Positions 1-10,601 of a DNA stretch of 30,735 bases are shown piece after piece. Each line of letters starts with the position of its first letter. Positions within the stretch are counted from its first letter, which is position 1. A program made the translations under genes and the position numbers. Source of the DNA: Fidelibacterota bacterium (GTDB taxonomy: Bacteria; Fidelibacterota; UBA8477); assembly GCA_021734045.1 (NCBI GenBank), contig JAIPJR010000031.1, forward strand, positions 1 to 30,735, given 5' to 3'. Below the pieces are notes generated by a model. That model was not told the DNA's origin, did not search any database, and saw only the letters and a list, made by a program, of their open reading frames with translations.

Positions 1-691
1 CTTTGGTGCGGGAAATGATGGGTGCCAGAGATGATTTTGGCAGGGTGTAATATTCCTGCAGCACACCATCTACGCGAAACCGGACCCGGACATTATTGCG
101 GCGGGGCTCAATATGAACATCACTGGCTCCGATGCGCACCGCCTCTTCGAACAACAGATCCACCGCTTCCATGGCGGACTGGTCTTCACCCAGCTCTTTG
201 GAAATGACGCGTGGGCCAACTTTTTTGCCTGCCTCATCTTCTGACTTTGCCTGATATTTCTCAGCGTTGTAGTACAGATCAATGGCGCGTTCAATATCCG
301 ATTCGGTGGAAATGACCAGGTTCACATCCATTCCGGAAATTTCTGTCACCGCATCCACCATCTCCACATCAAGGGGATCGTTTGTGGCAACAGTTACCTG
401 TTTATCCAAAGAAAAGATGGGAATGATATTGTATTTTTGGGCAGTTTCCTCAGGGATGATTTTCAAAACGGCGCTGTCAATGTCGTAGTTACTCAGTTTC
501 AGATAGGGTACCTGAAGAAATTTACTCAGGTGTTTAGACAACTGCTCTTCAGATAAGAATCCCAGCTGAATAACCGCTTTCCCGAGGTAGATATTATGAT
601 CCCTGCGGTAATGAAGTGCTTCGTCCAGTTGTCCGCGTGTCAGCAGTTTTTTCTCGACTAAATATTCGCCCAGTTGTTTTTTCTCTGCCAT
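1..691 (-). CDS. pilB: Type IV pilus extension ATPase PilB/GspE family, N-terminal part (cut by window edge)
   Basis: The frame is open from an ATG at 691 to the window edge and gives 230 residues starting MAEKKQLGEYLVEKK. Residues about 5-70 form two helical repeats of the MshEN type (LGEYLVEKKLLTRGQL, then LGKAVIQLGFLSEEQL), followed by a linker. Near residues 190-210 the start of the GspE/PilB core appears (IGASDVHIEPRRNNVRVRFR, then VDGVLQEYY). Walker A, Asp box and Walker B would lie beyond base 1, so ATPase competence cannot be checked. PilB-type enzymes hydrolyse ATP at the cytoplasmic face of the inner membrane to drive pilin polymerisation. It lies 63 bases after the prepilin peptidase and is the last visible gene of the pilus operon. 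There is no clear Shine-Dalgarno before the ATG. GspE of a type II system is the alternative, but the neighbouring PilT genes favour a pilus. Confidence 0.9.
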   Translation of the reverse strand, partial: MAEKKQLGEYLVEKKLLTRGQLDEALHYRRDHNIYLGKAVIQLGFLSEEQLSKHLSKFLQVPYLKLSNYDIDSAVLKIIPEETAQKYNIIPIFSLDKQVTVATNDPLDVEMVDAVTEISGMDVNLVISTESDIERAIDLYYNAEKYQAKSEDEAGKKVGPRVISKELGEDQSAMEAVDLLFEEAVRIGASDVHIEPRRNNVRVRFRVDGVLQEYYTLPKSSLAPIISRTK

Positions 692-754: not shown

Positions 755-1528
755 TTAAATGAACACAAAGGTTGTGAGATACCAGTTCAGGAGCATTTCC
801 CCGAAGAGCATACCCAGAAACATTCCTCCCGCTAAAAACTGCCCGAAGGGTACCTCCTGGCGGAATCGGACTTTCCCAAACGCCATCATGGTCAGGAATA
901 CCACCGTTGCCAGTACAAATCCCAGCAGCATGGAGATCAGGCCTACCTGCCACCCCAGAATCAGCCCCATCCAGCCGGCGAACTTCACATCACCGAACCC
1001 CATTACCTCCTGCTTGTAAATTTTCTTCCCGATAATGGAAATCATCCACAAGCCACCACCCAGAACCACCCCGCCAATGAGGAATTCTCCAATTTCGCCT
1101 GAGTAAGTGGTAAACCACAATCCGGCCATGGGTAGCAGTCCAAAGACCAACAGCGAATCCGGAATAACCTGATAGCGAACATCAATAGCTGAAATGGGAA
1201 TCAGTGCAGCGACAATCAGCAGGTACCACAATGTTTTCCACTCCAACCCAAACGCCTGTACCACCACCAGAAACAAGACCGTGGTGGTTAATTCCATCAG
1301 AATTCCCTGCCGTCCAAACACATGCCCGCATTGCGTGCATTTTTCAGCACCCAGGTGTCGCAGGATGGGTAGCCAGCCACGAATGCCATTGCGACCGGCA
1401 CCACATTCCGGACAATTGCCTGGTGGATTCCATTTCTCTTCCCGAGGCATTTGGGACACCAACCAATCCAGAAAAAATCCCACCGCAAGGCCGGCGAAAA
1501 TCATGAGGATGTAGAGTTGTACGGACAA
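755..1528 (-). CDS. pilD: Prepilin peptidase / N-methyltransferase (PilD/GspO, A24 family)
   Basis: A 257-residue polytopic membrane protein of normal family length. It should cleave the leader of type IV prepilins and methylate the new N-terminus. Two CxxC pairs (C39/C42 in CPECG, C64/C67 in CTQCG) match the zinc-binding cytoplasmic loop of bifunctional enzymes. The two catalytic aspartates are visible: D116 in IDVRYQVIPD and D180 in GFGDVK, 64 residues apart as in PilD. The open frame begins with TTG at 1528, only 16 bases after the receiver gene. The next in-frame ATG at 1504 would leave a very short N-terminus before the conserved first membrane helix, so TTG is preferred although neither has a good ribosome site. 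It is the single peptidase in view and would process pilins encoded outside the window. Confidence 0.93.
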   Translation of the reverse strand: MSVQLYILMIFAGLAVGFFLDWLVSQMPREEKWNPPGNCPECGAGRNGIRGWLPILRHLGAEKCTQCGHVFGRQGILMELTTTVLFLVVVQAFGLEWKTLWYLLIVAALIPISAIDVRYQVIPDSLLVFGLLPMAGLWFTTYSGEIGEFLIGGVVLGGGLWMISIIGKKIYKQEVMGFGDVKFAGWMGLILGWQVGLISMLLGFVLATVVFLTMMAFGKVRFRQEVPFGQFLAGGMFLGMLFGEMLLNWYLTTFVFI

Positions 1529-1544: not shown

Positions 1545-1907
1545 TTAAGGTAAATGTTTTTCAATGATTTTCACCAACTCCACCGGACTAATGGGCTTGG
1601 TAACATACTCATCCGCGCCGCTCTGCTTACCCATTTCCCGGTCTTTTTCCGTATCCTTCGCGGAACAAATAATGATGGGGATGTGGCGATAGTCTTCATC
1701 AAACTTCAACATGCGACTCACCTGATATCCGTTTAAAGCCGGGAGCATCAGATCCATCAGAATGACGTCCGGTGTCACCTCCCGTGCCATATTCAGTCCT
1801 TCCATGCCATCCGCAGCCACGAACACCTCATGCCCATTTCGCTCCAGAAACATCTTGATGGGCTGGGAGAAAAAACTTTCATCATCAACAATTAGTATCT
1901 TGGCCAT
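1545..1907 (-). CDS. Receiver-only response regulator (PilG/PilH/CheY-like)
   Basis: A 120-residue single receiver domain with no output domain. The acidic pocket is D8-D9, the phospho-acceptor is D52 (ILMDLMLP), followed by S82 and K104 (YVTKPISP), so all key residues are intact. An AAGGG site sits 6 bases before the ATG. The gene lies inside the pilus operon, 14 bases after the PilU-like ATPase gene and 16 bases before the prepilin peptidase gene, which suggests it tunes pilus extension or retraction, as PilG/PilH do in twitching motility. No dedicated kinase lies beside it. The large histidine kinase at 26114-29464 or a CheA-like protein elsewhere could phosphorylate it. The family call is firm; the pilus link is inferred from position. 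Confidence 0.92.
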   Translation of the reverse strand: MAKILIVDDESFFSQPIKMFLERNGHEVFVAADGMEGLNMAREVTPDVILMDLMLPALNGYQVSRMLKFDEDYRHIPIIICSAKDTEKDREMGKQSGADEYVTKPISPVELVKIIEKHLP

Positions 1908-1921
1908 ATTTTACCCTTACC

Positions 1922-3040
1922 TCATTCATCCATCTCATCAATGTCTTCGATTTCAATTCGCTCCGTAAAAACCGGTTCATCATCAGCATGGAGCCTGACC
2001 TTCAAATCCGTCGCCCGGTCGGCATTACGCATCACCTGGTCAAACGAAATATTACCGGCTTTATACAGCCGTTCTAATGAAAGATCAAATGTAATCATAT
2101 TTTCAGCCAGACCGGCTTCCATGGTGTGGCGCAGCATATTGATGTCGCCCTTCAATAACAGGTCCCTTATTCGTGCCGTAGAGAGCATAATTTCCATGGC
2201 AGCTACCCGACTGCCATCCTGTGCAGGGATTAGTCGCTGGCCGATAATACCTTTCAAATTCTGACTCAATTGCATTCGTATCATTTCGTGCTGAGCTGCG
2301 GGAAACATGCTCATGATGCGCTGGAGGGTCTGACTGGCGTTGGTGGCATGTAGTGTACTGAGCACCAGATGGCCCGTCTCGGCAAAATTCAGCGCTGCCT
2401 GCATAGACTCCATATCCCGGATTTCACCCACCAGAAGCATGTCCGGCGCTTCCCGCAATGCACTGCGTAGCGCGCTGGCATAGTTGGCAGTATCTGTTCC
2501 GATTTCGCGTTGGTTCACCACACTTTTTTGATGACGATGCAGAAATTCAATAGGGTCTTCAATGGTTAAAATATGGCCCGTTTTGACTGCATTCCGGTGG
2601 TTGACCATGGCCGCCAGGGTGGTGGATTTTCCTGAACCCGTAGAACCAATCACCAAAATGATTCCCCGGTCCTCTTCCGCCAGAGGTCCCAGAATCGGAG
2701 GCAGGTTCAACTCTTCCAGGGTCTTGATTTCACTCACGATCCGCCGGGCCACAAAGGCATCTGAGCCACGCTGCTTGAAAAAATTTATTCTGAACCGTCC
2801 CACCCCGGGTAAGCTGTGGGTGAAATCCAGTTCATTATGCTCTTCGTAGATTTTTTTAAGTCTTTCCGTTAGCAATTCAGCTTTCAACGCACCAATCATA
2901 TCCGGTGTGAGAATTTCTTTTTCCAGCGGAACGGTTCCACCTTTGATGCTTAGCATGGGATAAGCACCCAGCGAGACATACAGATCACTGGCGTCTGCCT
3001 CAACCATGAGTCCCAGGAGTGTATTAATGGTATAACTCAT
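1922..3040 (-). CDS. PilT/PilU-type pilus retraction ATPase (second paralogue)
   Basis: A 372-residue hexameric secretion-ATPase family protein. Walker A is GSTGSGKS (132-139), the Asp box is TIEDPIEFLH (from 159), Walker B is LLVGEIRD (catalytic E206), and the His box is GHLVLSTLHATNA (from 223), so it looks catalytically complete. The C-terminal AIRNLIRE signature of PilT is replaced by a divergent ARIRDLLLKG, and there is an acidic tail (EDIDEMDE), which resembles PilU. PilU works with PilT to boost retraction. Its ATG overlaps the PilT stop by four bases (ATGA, 3037-3040), so the two are translationally coupled. Being a second PilT rather than PilU is possible. Confidence 0.9.
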   Translation of the reverse strand: MSYTINTLLGLMVEADASDLYVSLGAYPMLSIKGGTVPLEKEILTPDMIGALKAELLTERLKKIYEEHNELDFTHSLPGVGRFRINFFKQRGSDAFVARRIVSEIKTLEELNLPPILGPLAEEDRGIILVIGSTGSGKSTTLAAMVNHRNAVKTGHILTIEDPIEFLHRHQKSVVNQREIGTDTANYASALRSALREAPDMLLVGEIRDMESMQAALNFAETGHLVLSTLHATNASQTLQRIMSMFPAAQHEMIRMQLSQNLKGIIGQRLIPAQDGSRVAAMEIMLSTARIRDLLLKGDINMLRHTMEAGLAENMITFDLSLERLYKAGNISFDQVMRNADRATDLKVRLHADDEPVFTERIEIEDIDEMDE

Positions 3041-4086
3041 CCTTCGGATGCCTTTTCAATCTGCTTTTTGATTTCCTCACTGTCTGCGGCGATATGCAGG
3101 GCGTCCTTTCGATTAACTACGCCCTTGCTAATCAGCGCCAGCAGCGACTGCCCCATGGTCACCATACCCAGTTTCCCGCTGGTTTGCTGCACCGATGGAA
3201 TCTGGTAAGTCTTGCTTTCCCGGATGAGGTTACGAACCGCCGGTGTTCCAATCATGATTTCATAAGCCGCTACCCTGCCGCCCCCCTGCTTGGGAAGCAA
3301 GACCTGGGATACAATGGCCAAAATCGACTCGGATAGCATGGTGCGAATTTGACTCTGGCGATCTGCCGAAAACTGATCAATAATCCGGTCAATGGTTTTG
3401 GCGGCGCTCATGGTATGCAGGGTACCGAAAACCAGGTGTCCGGTTTCTGCGGCAGTGATAGCCAGACTGGTCGTCTCCAGATCCCGCATTTCCCCCACCA
3501 CAATAACATCCGGGTCTTCCCGCAAGGCGGATCGCAACGCCCGTGTGAATGATTTAGTATTGGGACCTACCTCCCGCTGATTGACCAGCGCCCGTTTCGA
3601 CTCATGGACGAATTCCACGGGATCTTCAATGGTGATGATATGCCGCCGAAAATTCTGGTTTATATAGTCAATCATGGTATTGAGCGAGGTGGATTTTCCG
3701 GATCCGGTAGGACCGGTAACCAGAATCAGACCCTTTTCCCGACTGATTAAATCCTTTGTAACATCCGGGAGTCCCAGATCGCTGAAGCTATAGAGGCTGT
3801 CGGTGACGGCCCGCAACACCGCGGTGTCTCCCCGCAAACCTTTAAAGACATTTACACGATAACGCCCCACACCTGTGTACTCATAAGCAAAGTCCAACTC
3901 CAGCTCTTCTTCGTATTTTTTCCGCTCCTCATCGCCCATAAGGTTATACACCAGCATGTGCACATCTTCCGGCATTAATTCCGGCAGTTTGGCGCGCAGC
4001 ATCCGGCCGTCCACCCGGACGATGGGCGGTGAATAGGGACTCAGGTGCAGGTCTGAAGCGCCATACTCCCTGGCCATATTGAGCAA
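3037..4086 (-). CDS. pilT: Type IV pilus retraction ATPase PilT
   Basis: At 349 residues it matches classic PilT length. Walker A is GPTGSGKS (125-132), the Asp box is TIEDPVEFVH (catalytic E154), Walker B is VIVVGEMRD (E199), the His box is GHLVFGTLHTMSA (from 216), and the retraction signature is AVRNLIRESKTYQIPS (283-298). PilT depolymerises the pilus from the cytoplasmic side. The annotated start is TTG at 4086. The open frame continues upstream as IIDLL and aligns with the normal PilT N-terminus, but contains no ATG, GTG or TTG before the secretin stop at 4125, so the true start is unsettled. An AAGGGG lies at the secretin stop codon, 7 bases before an in-frame ATC (4111-4113). Confidence 0.95.
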   Translation of the reverse strand: MLNMAREYGASDLHLSPYSPPIVRVDGRMLRAKLPELMPEDVHMLVYNLMGDEERKKYEEELELDFAYEYTGVGRYRVNVFKGLRGDTAVLRAVTDSLYSFSDLGLPDVTKDLISREKGLILVTGPTGSGKSTSLNTMIDYINQNFRRHIITIEDPVEFVHESKRALVNQREVGPNTKSFTRALRSALREDPDVIVVGEMRDLETTSLAITAAETGHLVFGTLHTMSAAKTIDRIIDQFSADRQSQIRTMLSESILAIVSQVLLPKQGGGRVAAYEIMIGTPAVRNLIRESKTYQIPSVQQTSGKLGMVTMGQSLLALISKGVVNRKDALHIAADSEEIKKQIEKASEG

Positions 4087-4124: not shown

Positions 4125-5886
4125 TTATGGTCTGTTTTCTGAAATGATGTTCGGTGTTATGAAAATGAGCAGTTCCCGCTGCTTGGTGACATCATTGGTA
4201 TTCCTGAATAATCCACCAATGAAGGGGATGCTCCCCAGTAAAGGCAGCCGGGATACATTCTTGCTCTCTTCTTCAAAAATTAGCCCCCCGATAAGCAGCG
4301 TTTCCCCATTCCCAACCCGCACCTGTGTGGTGGTGGTTCGTTCGGAGATAATGGGCCGGTCAGCATTGGGTCCGGCAAACCCCACCACAGCCTGGACCTG
4401 TGCGCTGATGTTCATGGTGATAAAAACTTTTTCATTGATACGCGGTTTTACATTGAGGCTGATTTGTACCTCCTGGTCTTCGAAGGTCAATGGCTGCGTC
4501 CCCACCAGACCGCCCTCCCCGCTGGGCACGGCTACCGGGTAGGTGGTTCCCACGGAAACCATGGCCATGGCATTATCAGCTGTGGTTACCTGGGGTTCCT
4601 GAATCAGGCGGGTTTGATTATCACTGGACAAAATATCCAGAACAGCAGAAAAACTGAGAATATCCAGCGTCGCCATGCTGATACTGCGCCAGTTTCCAAT
4701 GGGAAATCCTTCCCCCTGATCACCACCCACCAGTGAGGCGCGCATATTCCAGTCAATCCCCAGTCGTTCATTCATGTCCAGATTGGTTTCGATGAATTTG
4801 ACGGCAATATTGATTTGCGGAACAGCCTGATCCAGCTCGTCAATGACCCTTTCAATCTCGGTGAAGTTATTGTGTAAATCCGAAATGAGGAGAATATCCA
4901 TACCCATTTGGCCAGCTGCACCTCCAGCCGCGCCACCGGCTCCACCAGCAGCTCCCCCGGCAGCACCTCCAGCGGCACCACCACCGCCACCGGCCATACC
5001 CATCAATGCACCGATTCCACCTGCTGCGCCACCGGCACCTCCGGCCCCGCCGCCACTGGCACCACCTGTGGCCATACCTCCGGCCATGACTTTGGAGAAG
5101 GTCTGAATCTTCCCCTTCTCGGTGAGTACATTGGTGAGCGCAGCAGCTATCGCACCCGCGTCAACGTATTCCAGTTTATAAACCCGGGTTTCCAATTCGC
5201 CCTGCAGCTCCTGGTCCCGGGGCTTTACCACAATGATATTTTCTTTAATAAACCAGTCGTAACCATTCACTTTCAGTAAGGCATCCAGCGCATCTCCCAG
5301 ACTCACATCCCGCAGATTGGCCGTCACCGTCCCGGTCACTTCCTCACCGGCAATGATATTCAAATCATTCTGCTTGGAAATCAGGCGGAGGACATTCACC
5401 AGTTCGGCGTCTTTGAAATTCAGGGTCACCGTAATATCAAATTGATTCACTTCCCGCACCCTGGCACGCTGTTGAATTTCGGTCGCCGTTGGAACCCAGG
5501 AAAATATCAGATTGGTGCCGTTCCGATCAGCCTGAATTTCCACCAACCTGTCCATATCCAGGCGAATCCGAACCTGCTTACCCTTGCCAGCCAGGTTCGT
5601 GCGAGCCTGTACCCGGTAAACCGGTGGCAGGTGGATATATTTGAGGAATTCACCCTTCATCCCGTAAATAGCTTTATCAAAGAAAATATCGATCTGGGGC
5701 GGACTTTGGCGCTGTTCAATCCGGTATTCCAGAGGCTCGGTAGCACTCACATAAACCCCCATGACGATCCCGGGACTCAAAGGTATTGATCCCCTGGATA
5801 ACCGGTTCATCTTTGGCATAGCTCATCGCCACCAAAAGCAAAAGCGACAGCCTGCTCACCCATCTAATTCTTCCTTGGACTCTCAT
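4125..5886 (-). CDS. pilQ: Type IV pilus secretin PilQ/GspD family, with a one-base frameshift near its 5' end
   Basis: Forms the outer-membrane ring through which the pilus passes. The uninterrupted frame runs 4125-5819 (564 residues) but begins with unrelated residues. A signal peptide (MRVQGRIRWVSRLSLLLLVA) followed by the start of an AMIN domain (VIQGINTFES) lies in another frame from an ATG at 5886. Removing one base in the C5 run at 5756-5760 joins them into a 586-residue protein. In corrected numbering: signal peptide 1-24, AMIN about 30-130, N0-like 148-226, N1 234-354 interrupted by a Gly/Ala loop (268-328), secretin barrel 355-583 with the QEPQVTT and LPLLGSIPFIGGLF motifs. The 5886 start lies 10 bases after the PilP-like gene, as expected in this operon. 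Either a real lesion or a base-call error. Confidence 0.88.
4902..5084 (-). repeat. Low-complexity Gly/Ala-rich repeat tract inside the secretin N1 domain
   Basis: About 61 codons encode almost only Gly and Ala, with repeated GGAAGGAAGGA units and a few Met, Ser, Thr and Leu. The tract sits between the two halves of the N1 domain (ending QTFSKV and resuming GMDILLISDL). It is therefore a loop insertion rather than a domain linker. On the plus strand the same bases give a misleading proline-rich reading frame. Confidence 0.85.
5756..5760 (-). other. Frameshift site in the secretin gene (C5 run, G5 on the coding strand)
   Basis: Upstream of this run the signal-peptide and AMIN frame reads sensibly to residues SRDRH, then continues as nonsense to a TGA about 40 bases on. 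Downstream the sensible frame (GVYVSATEPLEYRI) is shifted by one. With four bases in the run instead of five, the protein reads ...SRDRHGVYVSATE... without a break. The span 4125-5886 is 1762 bases, one more than a multiple of three, which agrees with a single inserted base. Confidence 0.75.
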
Positions 5887-5896
5887 TTTTCCGCCA

Positions 5897-6394
5897 CTAA
5901 TTCTCCAGGTTTATCCGGAGAGGTTGATTACCCTTTTTCAGGATTACAAAATTTGCCTCAATCTGATCGACAACAAATCCGGCAATACGGTCTCCTTCCG
6001 TAACCACTTCGTCATTGATAATGGCCATGCCACGTGTACCCCGCAGGGAGATTGCTGTTAATTCGATGGCCGGCTGACTCCCGTCCAATCCGAACAAGGA
6101 GGAGACCAGCCCATTATTCTGAGCGTCCAGTTCCTCAGCCGTTAGGTAGTAAAAGGGATCTGATGCCCACTCCCCGTCGTACTGAAAGCTTTTCAGTCGG
6201 TCGGCAGCTTGATAACTGGCACGATCCGCTTCCACGGTTCTCTGCTGATCTGCTTCCATTATCTGGCTTGATTGCCGGTCCGCAATGCTGCCACCTGCTG
6301 AGTCTCCGCCACTGAAAACGCCCTGGTCGACCAAATAAACCACCAGTAAAATCGCCAACACCAAAAACAGTATTTTCTGTCGGTTTTTACCCAT
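5897..6394 (-). CDS. PilP/GspC-like inner-membrane protein with secretin-contacting domain
   Basis: 165 residues from the ATG at 6394. A longer frame begins at 6436, but the 6394 start follows a GGTGG site and directly precedes the membrane helix. Residues about 7-21 (ILFLVLAILLVVYLV) form one transmembrane segment, then a polar linker. The C-terminal 55 residues form a small beta domain (IELTAISLRGTRGMAIINDE, then VTEGDRIAGFVVDQI) typical of the HR domain of GspC and the globular domain of PilP. This family links the inner-membrane alignment complex to secretin N0. It overlaps pilO by 8 bases (ATGGGTAA) and is followed 10 bases later by the secretin. It lacks the lipobox of classical PilP, so a GspC-like form is likely. 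Confidence 0.75.
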   Translation of the reverse strand: MGKNRQKILFLVLAILLVVYLVDQGVFSGGDSAGGSIADRQSSQIMEADQQRTVEADRASYQAADRLKSFQYDGEWASDPFYYLTAEELDAQNNGLVSSLFGLDGSQPAIELTAISLRGTRGMAIINDEVVTEGDRIAGFVVDQIEANFVILKKGNQPLRINLEN

Positions 6395-6959
6395 TGTTGT
6401 CCACCAGCATGTATGCAAATAACATGCATTTGGCATTCAGAGTTGCTTCACTACCCAGTTCTGAAGTCAACTCTAAACGACCAATGTTAAATTCAAACGG
6501 CCCATCCCTGAGCGCTTCCAGAAAATAACCAATGGTCAGGTAATCACCTTCGAACGCCAGGGATATCGGAAATTTTTCAATATGCAGGGAAGTAGTTATG
6601 AGATTGGATTTGATATTGGGCCAGGCGTCATTCAAATCCGGCACAATGGTGAATAAATTCACGCCCTGCTGATTAGCCGTATTCCGGATGAAATTCATTG
6701 CTTCTATAAACCCGGTACGGTTGGGAACCCGGGTTTCAAGTGAACGAATTTGGGTTACTGTTTCATCAAAGCGCGCTTTCACCGCATCATAGGCTTCCAC
6801 GCTGGCATTAATCTCCTCATATCGCTGATTCACATCTTCCAGTTTAGCCTCGGTGAGGCGAATTGTGAGACCGGCATTCATAAAATGCTGCCACACGAAG
6901 ACCAGCAGCATGAGTACCACGGCACCCAGAGAGGCAATTAATTTGGCGCGGGAATTCAT
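6387..6959 (-). CDS. pilO: Type IV pilus alignment protein PilO
   Basis: 190 residues: a short cytoplasmic start, one transmembrane helix (about 8-24, IASLGAVVLMLLVFVW), a coiled-coil region (about 32-75, rich in E, R and V), and a ferredoxin-like periplasmic domain with the family phrase GDYLTIGYFLEALRD near 140-153. PilO pairs with PilN to form the inner-membrane ring that couples the motor to the secretin. Its position between the PilM-PilN fusion (33 bases upstream) and the PilP-like gene (8-base overlap) is the canonical pilMNOPQ order. A GGAG site lies about 10 bases before the ATG. PilO is poorly conserved in sequence, so the call rests on topology, motif and synteny together. Confidence 0.85.
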   Translation of the reverse strand: MNSRAKLIASLGAVVLMLLVFVWQHFMNAGLTIRLTEAKLEDVNQRYEEINASVEAYDAVKARFDETVTQIRSLETRVPNRTGFIEAMNFIRNTANQQGVNLFTIVPDLNDAWPNIKSNLITTSLHIEKFPISLAFEGDYLTIGYFLEALRDGPFEFNIGRLELTSELGSEATLNAKCMLFAYMLVDNNG

Positions 6960-6992: not shown

Positions 6993-9755
6993 TTAAAATT
7001 CACAATCCATCTCGAAGAACAGCCGACTGGGTTGATTCTTATCCCGCGGTTTCACATTCAGCTTGATGTTCCGAAACGCCCGGGTCTTCTCCAGGTTCAT
7101 GCGGAAATTGGTCAGCCGGATATCCGCTACACTGGGGTCGGATTCCACAAAACCCACAATCTGGGCGTAATCCCTGAAATTTGAGGCCGCCATCGCTGTC
7201 GTTGCAGCATCCTCTGAGCCCGTCGTTGTTTCACCCCCCAGAAGTTCACGGTCAATGGTCAGGCCGGTGAGCCTGATCTCCTCAGGCACAACATTGGATA
7301 AAAACTTCATTACCTTTAGGTAGTTCTGGGTCTTCAAGCTGTCGGTTTTCAGAAAATCTGTGTACTGGCTCAGAATCCTGATATCCTTTTGATACCCAAG
7401 GTATTGCTCCGTTTTGGGTGAAATATTTCGTAAGGGCGCCTCTTTCCTGATTAATTCTTCCTGAAGGGCGTCAGCACGCATTTGTTCAAAAACCACAGTA
7501 AGGAGTATAATCGGTACTAAGACGGCCGCAGCAACCGAACTGATTGTGGCATAGGGAATCAGGGTTTGATCTTGTACGATATGATCGGGCAATAAATTGT
7601 ATTCGTCATTCCCCGGCACATTAAGCAGCGCAAAAAGTGTGGTATAAAGCGGCAAATCCTCATAAGGAATGGTCTTCTCTTCATCTTCGTAAACAATATT
7701 TTCTGCCCGGATAGGATTGAACAGACTAAGCTCAATACCCAGATTTTCCTGCAATGCGTTACTCAGATTAGGAATAGCCCCGCCTTGACCTGAGATATAA
7801 ATATGATCCCAATTGAGTTCGTTATATTGCTTCTTGAAAAAATTGATAGAGCGTTGAATTTCACTGGTAAGTCGCTCAATCACCGGTCGCAAGAAAATGG
7901 AGACACGATACAATGTCAGGCCATGGGGTTTGATTTTACCGGCAGGTTTACGGGGAATGCCGAAATCCGTTACAATTTTCGCGGCTTCTTCCCGGGTGAG
8001 CGTCACCGACTTGCCATCAATATTGACCTTTTGCTCCAGCGCCGTCTCAAAATCTTCAACACCCACCGACATTTCCCGGGTAGAGAGTAAAACCCCCTTA
8101 TGAATGACCACTAACGTGGTGTTGGATTGTTGCATGTGGAGCAAAATTGTGGTCTGTTCGTTCTGATCCGGATATTCCTTTTTAAAACTATTCCAGAGCA
8201 AGACCGGCAACTGACTGGTGTATCGGATTTGCATGCCGGCCTTACGAAATGCCGAATAGGTCTGTTTGGTTTTTTCCTTGTCAGCGCCGACTAAAATCAC
8301 ATGATCCTTGCCTGTTGCTGTGGCAGAGGGGTGAACATCATAGCGTAAAATGCCGCGTCCGTCCCCTAAATTCATGTTTTTCGTGGCCTGCCAATTCACC
8401 AGTTCGGATAAATCTTTTTTCCCCAGGGAGGATGGTGCCTGGAAAAAATGGGTCCGACCCTCAAATTGTCCCGAGTACACACTGGTGTAGAGCTTTTTTA
8501 GCCCTTTTTTCCCAATCACGCGGGGAAGTGCGACTTCGGTAAGCGTGCGTACATCGCGAATGACGGTGGTTTCATCAAGTTTGTAGGGGACCTTCAGGTA
8601 CCCGAATTTTTCCACCCGGATACTGGTACCACCCAGTCGTGCCTGCAGGTAGCGAATGCCTTTGTCCGTAACCTCAAGACAGAGCCTGCGGCTGGATTTG
8701 GTAATGCGGCGCATAAGGTTGGCGCTGAATTGGTCCGCCTGCAGACTGGGCGCCAGCGATTCGGCCATTTCAAATAAATCCGGAGGGGCGCTAACGGGTA
8801 ATGCCCACCCTTCATCATCCACCTCAATTTCCGTGGATCCAGACTTTTCCCTGGCTTCTTCAGCCAGTTGGGCTTTAATAACATCGGTAGCTTTTTTGGA
8901 TTTTTCCGCATCAATGAAGCGCTTCCGTCGATCCAGCAGATTTCGGGCTTCCCGGCGCTTCCGGCCAGGGTCCTCCTCATCACTCTCAGGATCTGAAGGT
9001 GGTAACTCTTCACCACCGATATCTTCCTCGGACGCCTGATCGGTCTCATCAACCTTCCCCAGGTAGGAACCAATCGGTTTGGTTCCCAACAATTCATCCT
9101 CTAAAGGTGACTCATCACCCACTGGTGAATCAGGAGCATCAGATTCAGAAGACTTAGAGGAAGGTTTTTCGTGTTCCGTGCTTGTGCCGGCTTCGTCAGC
9201 CTCACTTGTACCGGTTGGTGCTTTTTCACCTTCTTCCATGTTGGCCAGCAGGTCCATGAGTTTGTTCTGGGTTTCCGGTGAGGGGGTAAATTTTGGTTTC
9301 TCGGGAGCATGTGCTTCCGCGTTTTCACTGGCTTCGAAGGTGGTGGATTCGCTGGGGGATTCTGACTGTGTTGTTGGAGAAGGCTCAGGCGCTTTGTCTT
9401 GTTCTATTTCGTCTTCAGGGTCGGCCGATTGTGTGGCTGAATCTTCCTTACGAATATCCGGCTTTTCGGAAGAGGTTTCGGGTACGGATTCAGATTTTTC
9501 ATGAACAGGTGGTTGCTCTTCCGGTGGCGAAGTTTTCTCCTTCTCCACGTCCTCTACCGGTGCGTCACTGCGTGATTCCGCCGTTGGGGGCGACGGCGGG
9601 CTTGTGGCTTCCGCTTCTTTTTTACCCGCTTCAGAGTCCGCTTTCCCCCGTTTACCTTGTTTTTCTTCAATCTCAACATTGCCTGCCTGCTGAGATCGCA
9701 ATAAATCCAGTAACCGGGTGGTCGCTAATTTCCTATTTTCGTCTTTTTCGGCCAT
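6993..9755 (-). CDS. pilMN: PilM-PilN fusion protein with long N-terminal acidic disordered region
   Basis: 920 residues, far longer than PilM (about 350) or PilN (about 190). Residues 1-350 are hydrophilic and low in complexity (rich in E, S, P, D, T), with short hydrophobic motifs RLLDLL (14-19) and KLMDLL (165-170). Residues about 356-715 look like the actin-like PilM ATPase fold, including VTDKGIRYLQARL and a nucleotide-site phrase ISGQGGAIPNL (654-664). A YNLLP motif at 719-723 matches the INLLP peptide by which PilN docks onto PilM. It is followed by one transmembrane helix (736-754) and a coiled-coil and ferredoxin-like PilN periplasmic domain (to 920). This tethers the cytoplasmic ring to the membrane in one chain. 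An AGG site lies before the ATG, 18 bases after the ExeA-like gene. Confidence 0.85.
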   Translation of the reverse strand: MAEKDENRKLATTRLLDLLRSQQAGNVEIEEKQGKRGKADSEAGKKEAEATSPPSPPTAESRSDAPVEDVEKEKTSPPEEQPPVHEKSESVPETSSEKPDIRKEDSATQSADPEDEIEQDKAPEPSPTTQSESPSESTTFEASENAEAHAPEKPKFTPSPETQNKLMDLLANMEEGEKAPTGTSEADEAGTSTEHEKPSSKSSESDAPDSPVGDESPLEDELLGTKPIGSYLGKVDETDQASEEDIGGEELPPSDPESDEEDPGRKRREARNLLDRRKRFIDAEKSKKATDVIKAQLAEEAREKSGSTEIEVDDEGWALPVSAPPDLFEMAESLAPSLQADQFSANLMRRITKSSRRLCLEVTDKGIRYLQARLGGTSIRVEKFGYLKVPYKLDETTVIRDVRTLTEVALPRVIGKKGLKKLYTSVYSGQFEGRTHFFQAPSSLGKKDLSELVNWQATKNMNLGDGRGILRYDVHPSATATGKDHVILVGADKEKTKQTYSAFRKAGMQIRYTSQLPVLLWNSFKKEYPDQNEQTTILLHMQQSNTTLVVIHKGVLLSTREMSVGVEDFETALEQKVNIDGKSVTLTREEAAKIVTDFGIPRKPAGKIKPHGLTLYRVSIFLRPVIERLTSEIQRSINFFKKQYNELNWDHIYISGQGGAIPNLSNALQENLGIELSLFNPIRAENIVYEDEEKTIPYEDLPLYTTLFALLNVPGNDEYNLLPDHIVQDQTLIPYATISSVAAAVLVPIILLTVVFEQMRADALQEELIRKEAPLRNISPKTEQYLGYQKDIRILSQYTDFLKTDSLKTQNYLKVMKFLSNVVPEEIRLTGLTIDRELLGGETTTGSEDAATTAMAASNFRDYAQIVGFVESDPSVADIRLTNFRMNLEKTRAFRNIKLNVKPRDKNQPSRLFFEMDCEF

Positions 9756-9773: not shown

Positions 9774-10601
9774 CTATAATTGGGTGAACTGTTTATTGGA
9801 AAGGTAGCTGTTCACCATGTTGGCAGTCACCGACTCCCGCTTCGCAATCAGCATCTCCAACAGAAGGTTATGACAGAGTACGACCATCTTGCGCGGGTAG
9901 CCTTGCGTTTCAGTGAAAATCATTTCTTTGGCATCATCGGTAAACAATTCTCCCGGCGCCGGATGCCCCGCCACACGCAGGCGATAATCGATGAACTGCT
10001 TTGATTCCTCCCGATCCAATGGCTGCAATGTGTAAGACATGGCCACACGATCCTTTAGATTCGGCATGGCATTCAGTGTCTCACGAAATTCCGGCTGGGC
10101 CAAAATCACCACCTGTATCAATTTTTTCTGGTTCGTTTCAAAATTGAGCAGGGAGCGAATCAATTCCAATTGCTCCGTCCCCAATTTCTGTCCCTCATCG
10201 ATGATTAACACAATTTGCTTGTTCGCCTCAATGGACATATCGATGAGAAAATGTTCAATCACATTCATATAACCCATCACATTGTCTTGGGTAATACGAA
10301 TGCCAAACAAACGAGCAATGTATTGGATGAATTCCAGATTGGATTCAAATCCGGGATCGATAACCAGAAAAAACTTAAAATCCCGACCAAAATCAGAAAA
10401 CCGGCTCAACAAATAGCGTGATAGCGTCGTTTTTCCCAGCCCGATTCCGCCTACCACGATGTTCAGTCCGCGCGCCAAACGCAGTGATATTTCTAACCGG
10501 TCCACACAATGGGTGTGGTGCCTGGCTTCGAAATAAAAATCCGGATCGGGTGTCATGGAGAAGGGCTCTTTCTCCAACCCTATGAGCTCATAATAATTCA
10601 T
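9774..10601 (-). CDS. ExeA/GspA-like AAA ATPase, first gene of the pilus operon
   Basis: 275 residues starting with the family's N-terminal phrase MNYYELIGLEKEPFSMTPDP. Walker A is GGIGLGKT (51-58), Walker B is IVLIIDEGQ (130-138), and a sensor-like ILAQPEF follows, then an AAA lid with GYPRKM. There is no membrane segment and no peptidoglycan-binding domain, so it is the short soluble MshM/ExeA-core form. ExeA with ExeB helps place the secretin through the cell wall; MshM is found in pilus loci. Here it heads the pil operon, 18 bases before the PilM-PilN fusion, and may aid secretin or pilus assembly. DNA-transposition ATPases (TniB-like) share this fold, but no transposase is nearby. Confidence 0.82.
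   Translation of the reverse strand: MNYYELIGLEKEPFSMTPDPDFYFEARHHTHCVDRLEISLRLARGLNIVVGGIGLGKTTLSRYLLSRFSDFGRDFKFFLVIDPGFESNLEFIQYIARLFGIRITQDNVMGYMNVIEHFLIDMSIEANKQIVLIIDEGQKLGTEQLELIRSLLNFETNQKKLIQVVILAQPEFRETLNAMPNLKDRVAMSYTLQPLDREESKQFIDYRLRVAGHPAPGELFTDDAKEMIFTETQGYPRKMVVLCHNLLLEMLIAKRESVTANMVNSYLSNKQFTQL

Follow-up and report, generated by a model that had tools for sequence, protein, structure and literature searches.

A PilM-PilN fusion gene, almost certainly genuine, in a pilus operon of an uncultivated bacterial lineage

Gene neighbourhood of the fusion

The stretch of DNA analysed here (the window) comprises 30,735 nucleotides from a Fidelibacterota bacterium. The lineage, part of a marine phylum that has received little study, is uncultivated and known through genome assemblies. 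Its central feature is a 920-residue reading frame at 6993-9755, termed pilMN. The earlier note had described this frame without naming its strand; the frame is real and lies on the minus strand, the plus strand across the same interval being full of stops. The pilMN gene and its neighbours are:

9774..10601, minus: ExeA/MshM-type AAA_22 ATPase gene, 275 aa, upstream of pilMN (domain search; phylum-conserved neighbour)
6993..9755, minus: predicted pilMN fusion gene, ATG to stop, 920 aa
6387..6959, minus: pilO (PF04350 above cut-off)
5897..6436, minus: pilP-like or T2SSB-like gene (weak PF16537 match, conserved position)
4125..5819, minus: secretin, pilQ (PF00263, 2e-43)
3037..4086, minus: pilT (TIGR01420, 455 bits)
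1922..3040, minus: second gene of the pilT/pilU type (TIGR01420, 403 bits)
1545..1907, minus: single-domain response regulator (PF00072, 9e-27)
755..1528, minus: prepilin peptidase, pilD (PF01478, PF06750)
2..691, minus: 5' part of pilB, truncated where the contig stops

The position of pilMN between an ExeA-like gene and pilO, as first read from the sequence, was confirmed by domain searches for both neighbours. A sister genome (G002) has the whole operon, with a full pilB followed by pilC at the same place. Taken together, the window and G002 contain the type IVa set PilB, PilC, PilD, PilO, PilP, secretin and PilT, in which PilP is assigned by weak similarity and position. Within its N domains, near residues 245-310, the secretin has about 65 residues rich in Gly, Ala and Met. 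The best scores of the PilP-like gene at 5897-6436 were to T2SSB, CdsD_C and Y4YQ_C, all below cut-off.

Two further genomes of the genus encode the pilMN chain as well (82% and 57% identity), and so do independent public assemblies. This recurrence rules out an accidental reading frame or a misjoined assembly. A scan of named genomes with pilMN returned only two further genus members and one weak PilM-like match, and identity of the core across the phylum is 16-33%.

The same genome holds two further pilus gene sets. Contig C117 encodes a separate pilM (351 aa) and pilN (200 aa) together with pilin, pilT, pilO, pilP, pilQ, pilB and pilC, and contig C55 (L100, 1259-5323, minus) encodes separate pilM-like, pilN-like and pilO-like genes with a secretin, prepilins and a prepilin peptidase. 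The earlier note had named separate pilM and pilN genes elsewhere, combined with a gene unrelated to pili, as grounds against its reading. The separate genes do exist, on C117 and C55, and pilMN itself stands in a pilus operon. Since separate pilM and pilN occur twice elsewhere in the genome, the fused gene is assigned to an additional machine. The likely reading is a genuine PilM-PilN fusion that forms the platform at the inner membrane for an extra pilus machine, type IVa-like and able to retract.

Domains of the fused chain

The features of the 920-residue protein, from the N-terminus to the C-terminus, are:

9681..9755, minus: residues 1-25, conserved N-terminal peptide MAEKDENRKLATTRLLDLLRSQQAG (motif in 33/33 complete non-giant fused chains)
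9696-9725, minus: residues 11-20, the motif in its window version, ATTRLLDLLR
8970..9680, minus: residues 26-262, acidic low-complexity linker, presumably disordered (genus identity, composition)
8721..8969, minus: residues 263-345, conserved charged segment before PilM (RREARNLLDRRKRFIDAEK...; genus identity 95% / 74%)
7620..8720, minus: residues 346-712, PilM (actin-like) domain (TIGR01175 2.2e-25, PF11104 1.9e-11, PDB PilM 2.8e-46)
7587..7601, minus: residues 719-723, YNLLP, PilN docking motif (aligned to the NLLP of the 5eou chimera)
7485..7544, minus: residues 738-757, single membrane helix (hydropathy maximum, 738-756)
6996..7484, minus: residues 758-920, PilN-like coil and periplasmic domain (hhalign, 3jc8, PF05137)

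The assignment of the actin-like domain to PilM by sequence comparison is secure, in agreement with the PilM-like fold first proposed for residues 356-715. The protein matches PF11104 above cut-off, and TIGR01175 covers residues 355-684 with 89 bits, below its cut-off of 133. A family profile built from 23 pilMN members matched the solved PilM chains of Myxococcus xanthus (3jc8; 2.8e-46, over profile positions 6-366), 2ych (6.9e-32) and 5eou (8.1e-25), the last alignment running through the C-terminal NLLP of 5eou. Profile comparison of the fused PilM domains with separate PilM of the same phylum gave an E-value of 4e-51. Within the genus the domain is 93% and 67% identical.

PilM has been described as a nucleotide-binding protein. 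In the window protein the first phosphate loop reads LEVTDKG, with EVT in place of DIG, and the DIG signature of the ASKHA fold is thus absent; the domain is therefore called a PilM homologue without this feature rather than a canonical PilM. DxG was present at this loop in 15/15 separate PilM that could be read and in only one of 27 fused chains (L062), having been lost in the other 26. These substitutions suggest that the PilM domain of the fused chain has probably lost the ability to bind nucleotide. GspL, too, is not known to be a nucleotide-binding protein.

The YNLLP motif lies where it had been placed initially, after the PilM fold and before the membrane helix, as its position and the hydropathy profile confirm, and an NLLP-type motif is retained in nearly all fused chains. 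The periplasmic domain is a divergent PilN and not a PilO by profile comparison, an assignment that is weaker for the single protein and holds at the family level. Comparison of the family with 31 canonical PilN of the phylum by hhalign gave E-values of about 1e-6 (probability 81-90%), against about 1% probability for PilO; the family-level match to M. xanthus PilN (3jc8) had an E-value of 0.006. PF05137 (PilN) was matched by 9 of 22 family members (best 9.7e-7) and fell below cut-off for the window protein itself. Domain searches, profile-profile comparison and the pilus operon thus bear out PilM, docking motif and PilN in one chain, and pilMN is almost certainly a genuine PilM-PilN fusion. 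AlphaFold2, run with three homologues in the input, returned a mean pLDDT of 33 for residues 346-920 and 44 for residues 706-920, values too low for either model to be used, also for the circularly permuted ferredoxin fold expected of PilN.

In the proposed arrangement, the NLLP peptide would dock back on its own or a neighbouring PilM, and the docked fusion would, like GspL, provide a stator whose cytoplasmic and periplasmic parts stand in a 1:1 ratio. The suggestion in the earlier note that fusion makes the cytoplasmic ring permanent, with consequences for PilM exchange, was overstated, because fusion does not prevent PilB and PilT from competing for a fixed PilM; published models have the two motors compete for just such a stator (PMC11656802) and are compatible with the fusion.

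Comparison with known fusions and related systems

The fusion as such is already known, so that the premise that PilM and PilN are normally separate needs qualification: GspL/PulL of type II secretion systems (T2SS) unites the two, and so do the type IV pili of Clostridium difficile (PMC6916266). Compared by description, the C. difficile fusion differs in belonging to a monoderm organism, without secretin or PilP. GspL/PulL resembles pilMN in having an actin-like cytoplasmic domain, one membrane helix and a PilN-like periplasmic domain, whereas pilMN stands in an operon with two PilT genes, has detectable PilM and PilN similarity, carries a long motif-bearing leader and keeps NLLP. That pilMN is simply GspL and that its operon encodes type II secretion and not a pilus is nevertheless a reading to consider, as the domain order is the same and the PilP-like gene scores best against T2SSB. 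GspL would be expected in a T2SS operon without PilT, however, and the window operon holds two PilT-family genes (455 and 403 bits); moreover, it is PilM models, not those of GspL, that match the protein, and the two fused domains are similar to the PilM and PilN that occur as separate proteins in this phylum. The GspL identity is therefore very improbable.

Three other systems resemble parts of the locus. The 608-position model of the Amuc_1101 family (NF045709, Akkermansia PilM-like pilus protein) is colinear with pilMN residues 434-826; this match extends through PilM past the membrane helix, and Amuc_1101 is therefore probably also a fusion, although pilMN itself, at 71.9 bits against a curated cut-off of 650, is not a member. 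The crystallographic 5eou is a laboratory chimera of PilM and a PilN peptide whose NLLP aligns with that of the pilMN family, whereas in the natural protein the chain goes on through the membrane helix to PilN. MSHA loci with MshM (ExeA-like) likewise place an ExeA-like ATPase beside equivalents of PilM/N/O/P/Q; the window locus differs from them in the PilT genes of its operon.

PilM is thought to be the socket at which extension and retraction motors compete (PMC11656802). With PilM welded to PilN, the nucleotide signature lost and two PilT genes kept, the role of nucleotide binding and of PilM-PilN dissociation in motor exchange becomes testable.

Relatives in the phylum and the conserved N-terminal peptide

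Public records of the two genus relatives give their phylum as Ca. Neomarinimicrobiota. The fused core was matched in 106/245 genomes of this phylum at E 1e-6. The survey of related genomes for the same fusion, suggested in the earlier note, yielded long PilMN-type frames (500 aa or more) in about 80 of the 245 (count from table), and most of the remaining core matches are separate PilM, about 350 aa long. A tree built from 44 PilM domains has an arbitrary root and several long branches. In it, separate PilM fall on one side of a branch (99/97), which leaves room for a single fusion event.

Wherever the flanking sequence is long enough, an ordinary fused gene has an ExeA-like gene upstream of it, in nearly all cases as its direct neighbour. 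In five loci (L058, L059, L060, L102, L104; family f19) ExeA, PilM and PilN form one chain of 962-983 aa, and the ExeA-fused chains that were checked carry a version of the N-terminal motif after the ATPase. They form a group of their own in the tree (100/100).

Giant frames of 1,815-2,797 aa were found in 14 genomes; in G079 they are fragments. Eight loci (L050-L054, L056, L057, L101) encode giants of 2,112-2,797 aa, and the sequences read run in the order ArsR-like winged helix, basic linker, PilM, coil, LN[LI]LP, membrane helix and PilN. The winged helix matches HTH_20 at 3.3e-10 in L050 and more weakly or below cut-off in others, while the coil spans 1,292-1,906 residues with a 3.5-residue hydrophobic periodicity and <1.2% proline. 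Giant loci have PilO, PilP and secretin genes downstream, and in L103 also PilB and PilC; neither the N-terminal motif nor an adjacent ExeA-like gene is present. The giants form one group in the tree (100/99), placed with the ordinary fused chains (100/99), and genome G117 encodes an ExeA-PilM-PilN chain, a giant and a separate PilM. In L055 (3150-10919, minus) and L103, of about 2,450-2,590 aa, the order differs: a long, repetitive helical region stands ahead of the winged helix and not after PilM; its start is unsure because frames were taken from stop to stop.

The leader (residues 1-345) of the window protein contains 17% E, 12% S, 10% P and 8% D, with a net charge of -46. It had been described as an acidic disordered leader, a description that is too simple: across the phylum, the first 20 residues are conserved and the rest varies in length and charge. 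Within the genus, residues 1-25 are 96% and 72% identical, against 53% and 33%, with many gaps, for the linker (26-262). Phylum-wide, the linker measures about 120-590 aa and its net charge ranges from -116 to +34, so acidity is not the conserved property. As some homologous leaders are basic, acidity was dropped as an important feature.

What is conserved is A-T-N-[RK]-L-L-[DEN]-[LIV]-L-R or a close variant, present in 33/33 complete ordinary fused chains, the ExeA-fused ones included. The search itself specified no more than [KR]L[LF]xxL[RK], and the flanking A, T and N outside it were nonetheless found in 31/33, 29/33 and 29/33 chains. The pattern matched 10 of 12,200 shuffled N-termini and no unrelated open reading frame, the sole other match among 349 frames being a split-off pilMN leader; the window's genome has no second copy of the motif besides that in pilMN. 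ATNRLLDLLR is likely to form an amphipathic helix, and the long leader would act as a flexible tether presenting this short peptide to a partner.

Which partner is meant can be approached through co-occurrence. Synteny and co-occurrence allow the tentative proposal that the leader tethers the ExeA-like ATPase through the motif and keeps it at the pilus base. In the Aeromonas T2SS, assembly of the secretin depends on ExeA together with ExeB (PMC4098917), and the MSH pilus model counts mshM among its mandatory genes (PMC6668835). The motif persists where ExeA is already fused beside it, however, and the partner could therefore be PilB, PilT, PilC or a polar marker. That the peptide recruits not the ATPase but one of the motors, PilB or PilT, or a marker of the cell pole is possible, if doubtful: PilM homologues contact PilB (PMC8389850), yet the giants lack the motif even with PilB and PilC in the locus (L103), and the motif is found together with an ExeA that is either adjacent or fused. 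The LLxxLL pattern would also suit a membrane- or self-associating helix with no dedicated partner, but the polar A-T-N, conserved in 29-31 of 33 chains, goes beyond what amphipathicity needs and makes this unlikely.

Returning to the tethered ATPase, a wider reading would make PilMN a nucleotide-independent covalent hub, in which the motif holds ExeA and the coil of the giants is an SMC-like hairpin, possibly directed towards the nucleoid; this is quite improbable. The coil lies between PilM and NLLP and, if NLLP still docks, would fold back as a hairpin that extends at least tens of nanometres into the cytoplasm. A limited literature search returned nothing on the motif, the triple fusion or the giants, nor on any PilM with coiled coil and winged helix. 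The 10-residue motif ATNRLLDLLR ahead of a variable linker, the fusion of the upstream ATPase in some relatives, the giants with winged helix and coiled coil, and the loss of the PilM nucleotide signature in fused chains are all apparently new. The peptide, the triple-fusion chains and the giants with their coiled coil suggest that the base of the pilus has partners yet to be recognised.

At one locus (L039, 902-3159, minus; genome G230), a motif-bearing leader (214 aa) and a core (573 aa) overlap in different frames, consistent with a frameshift or sequencing error.
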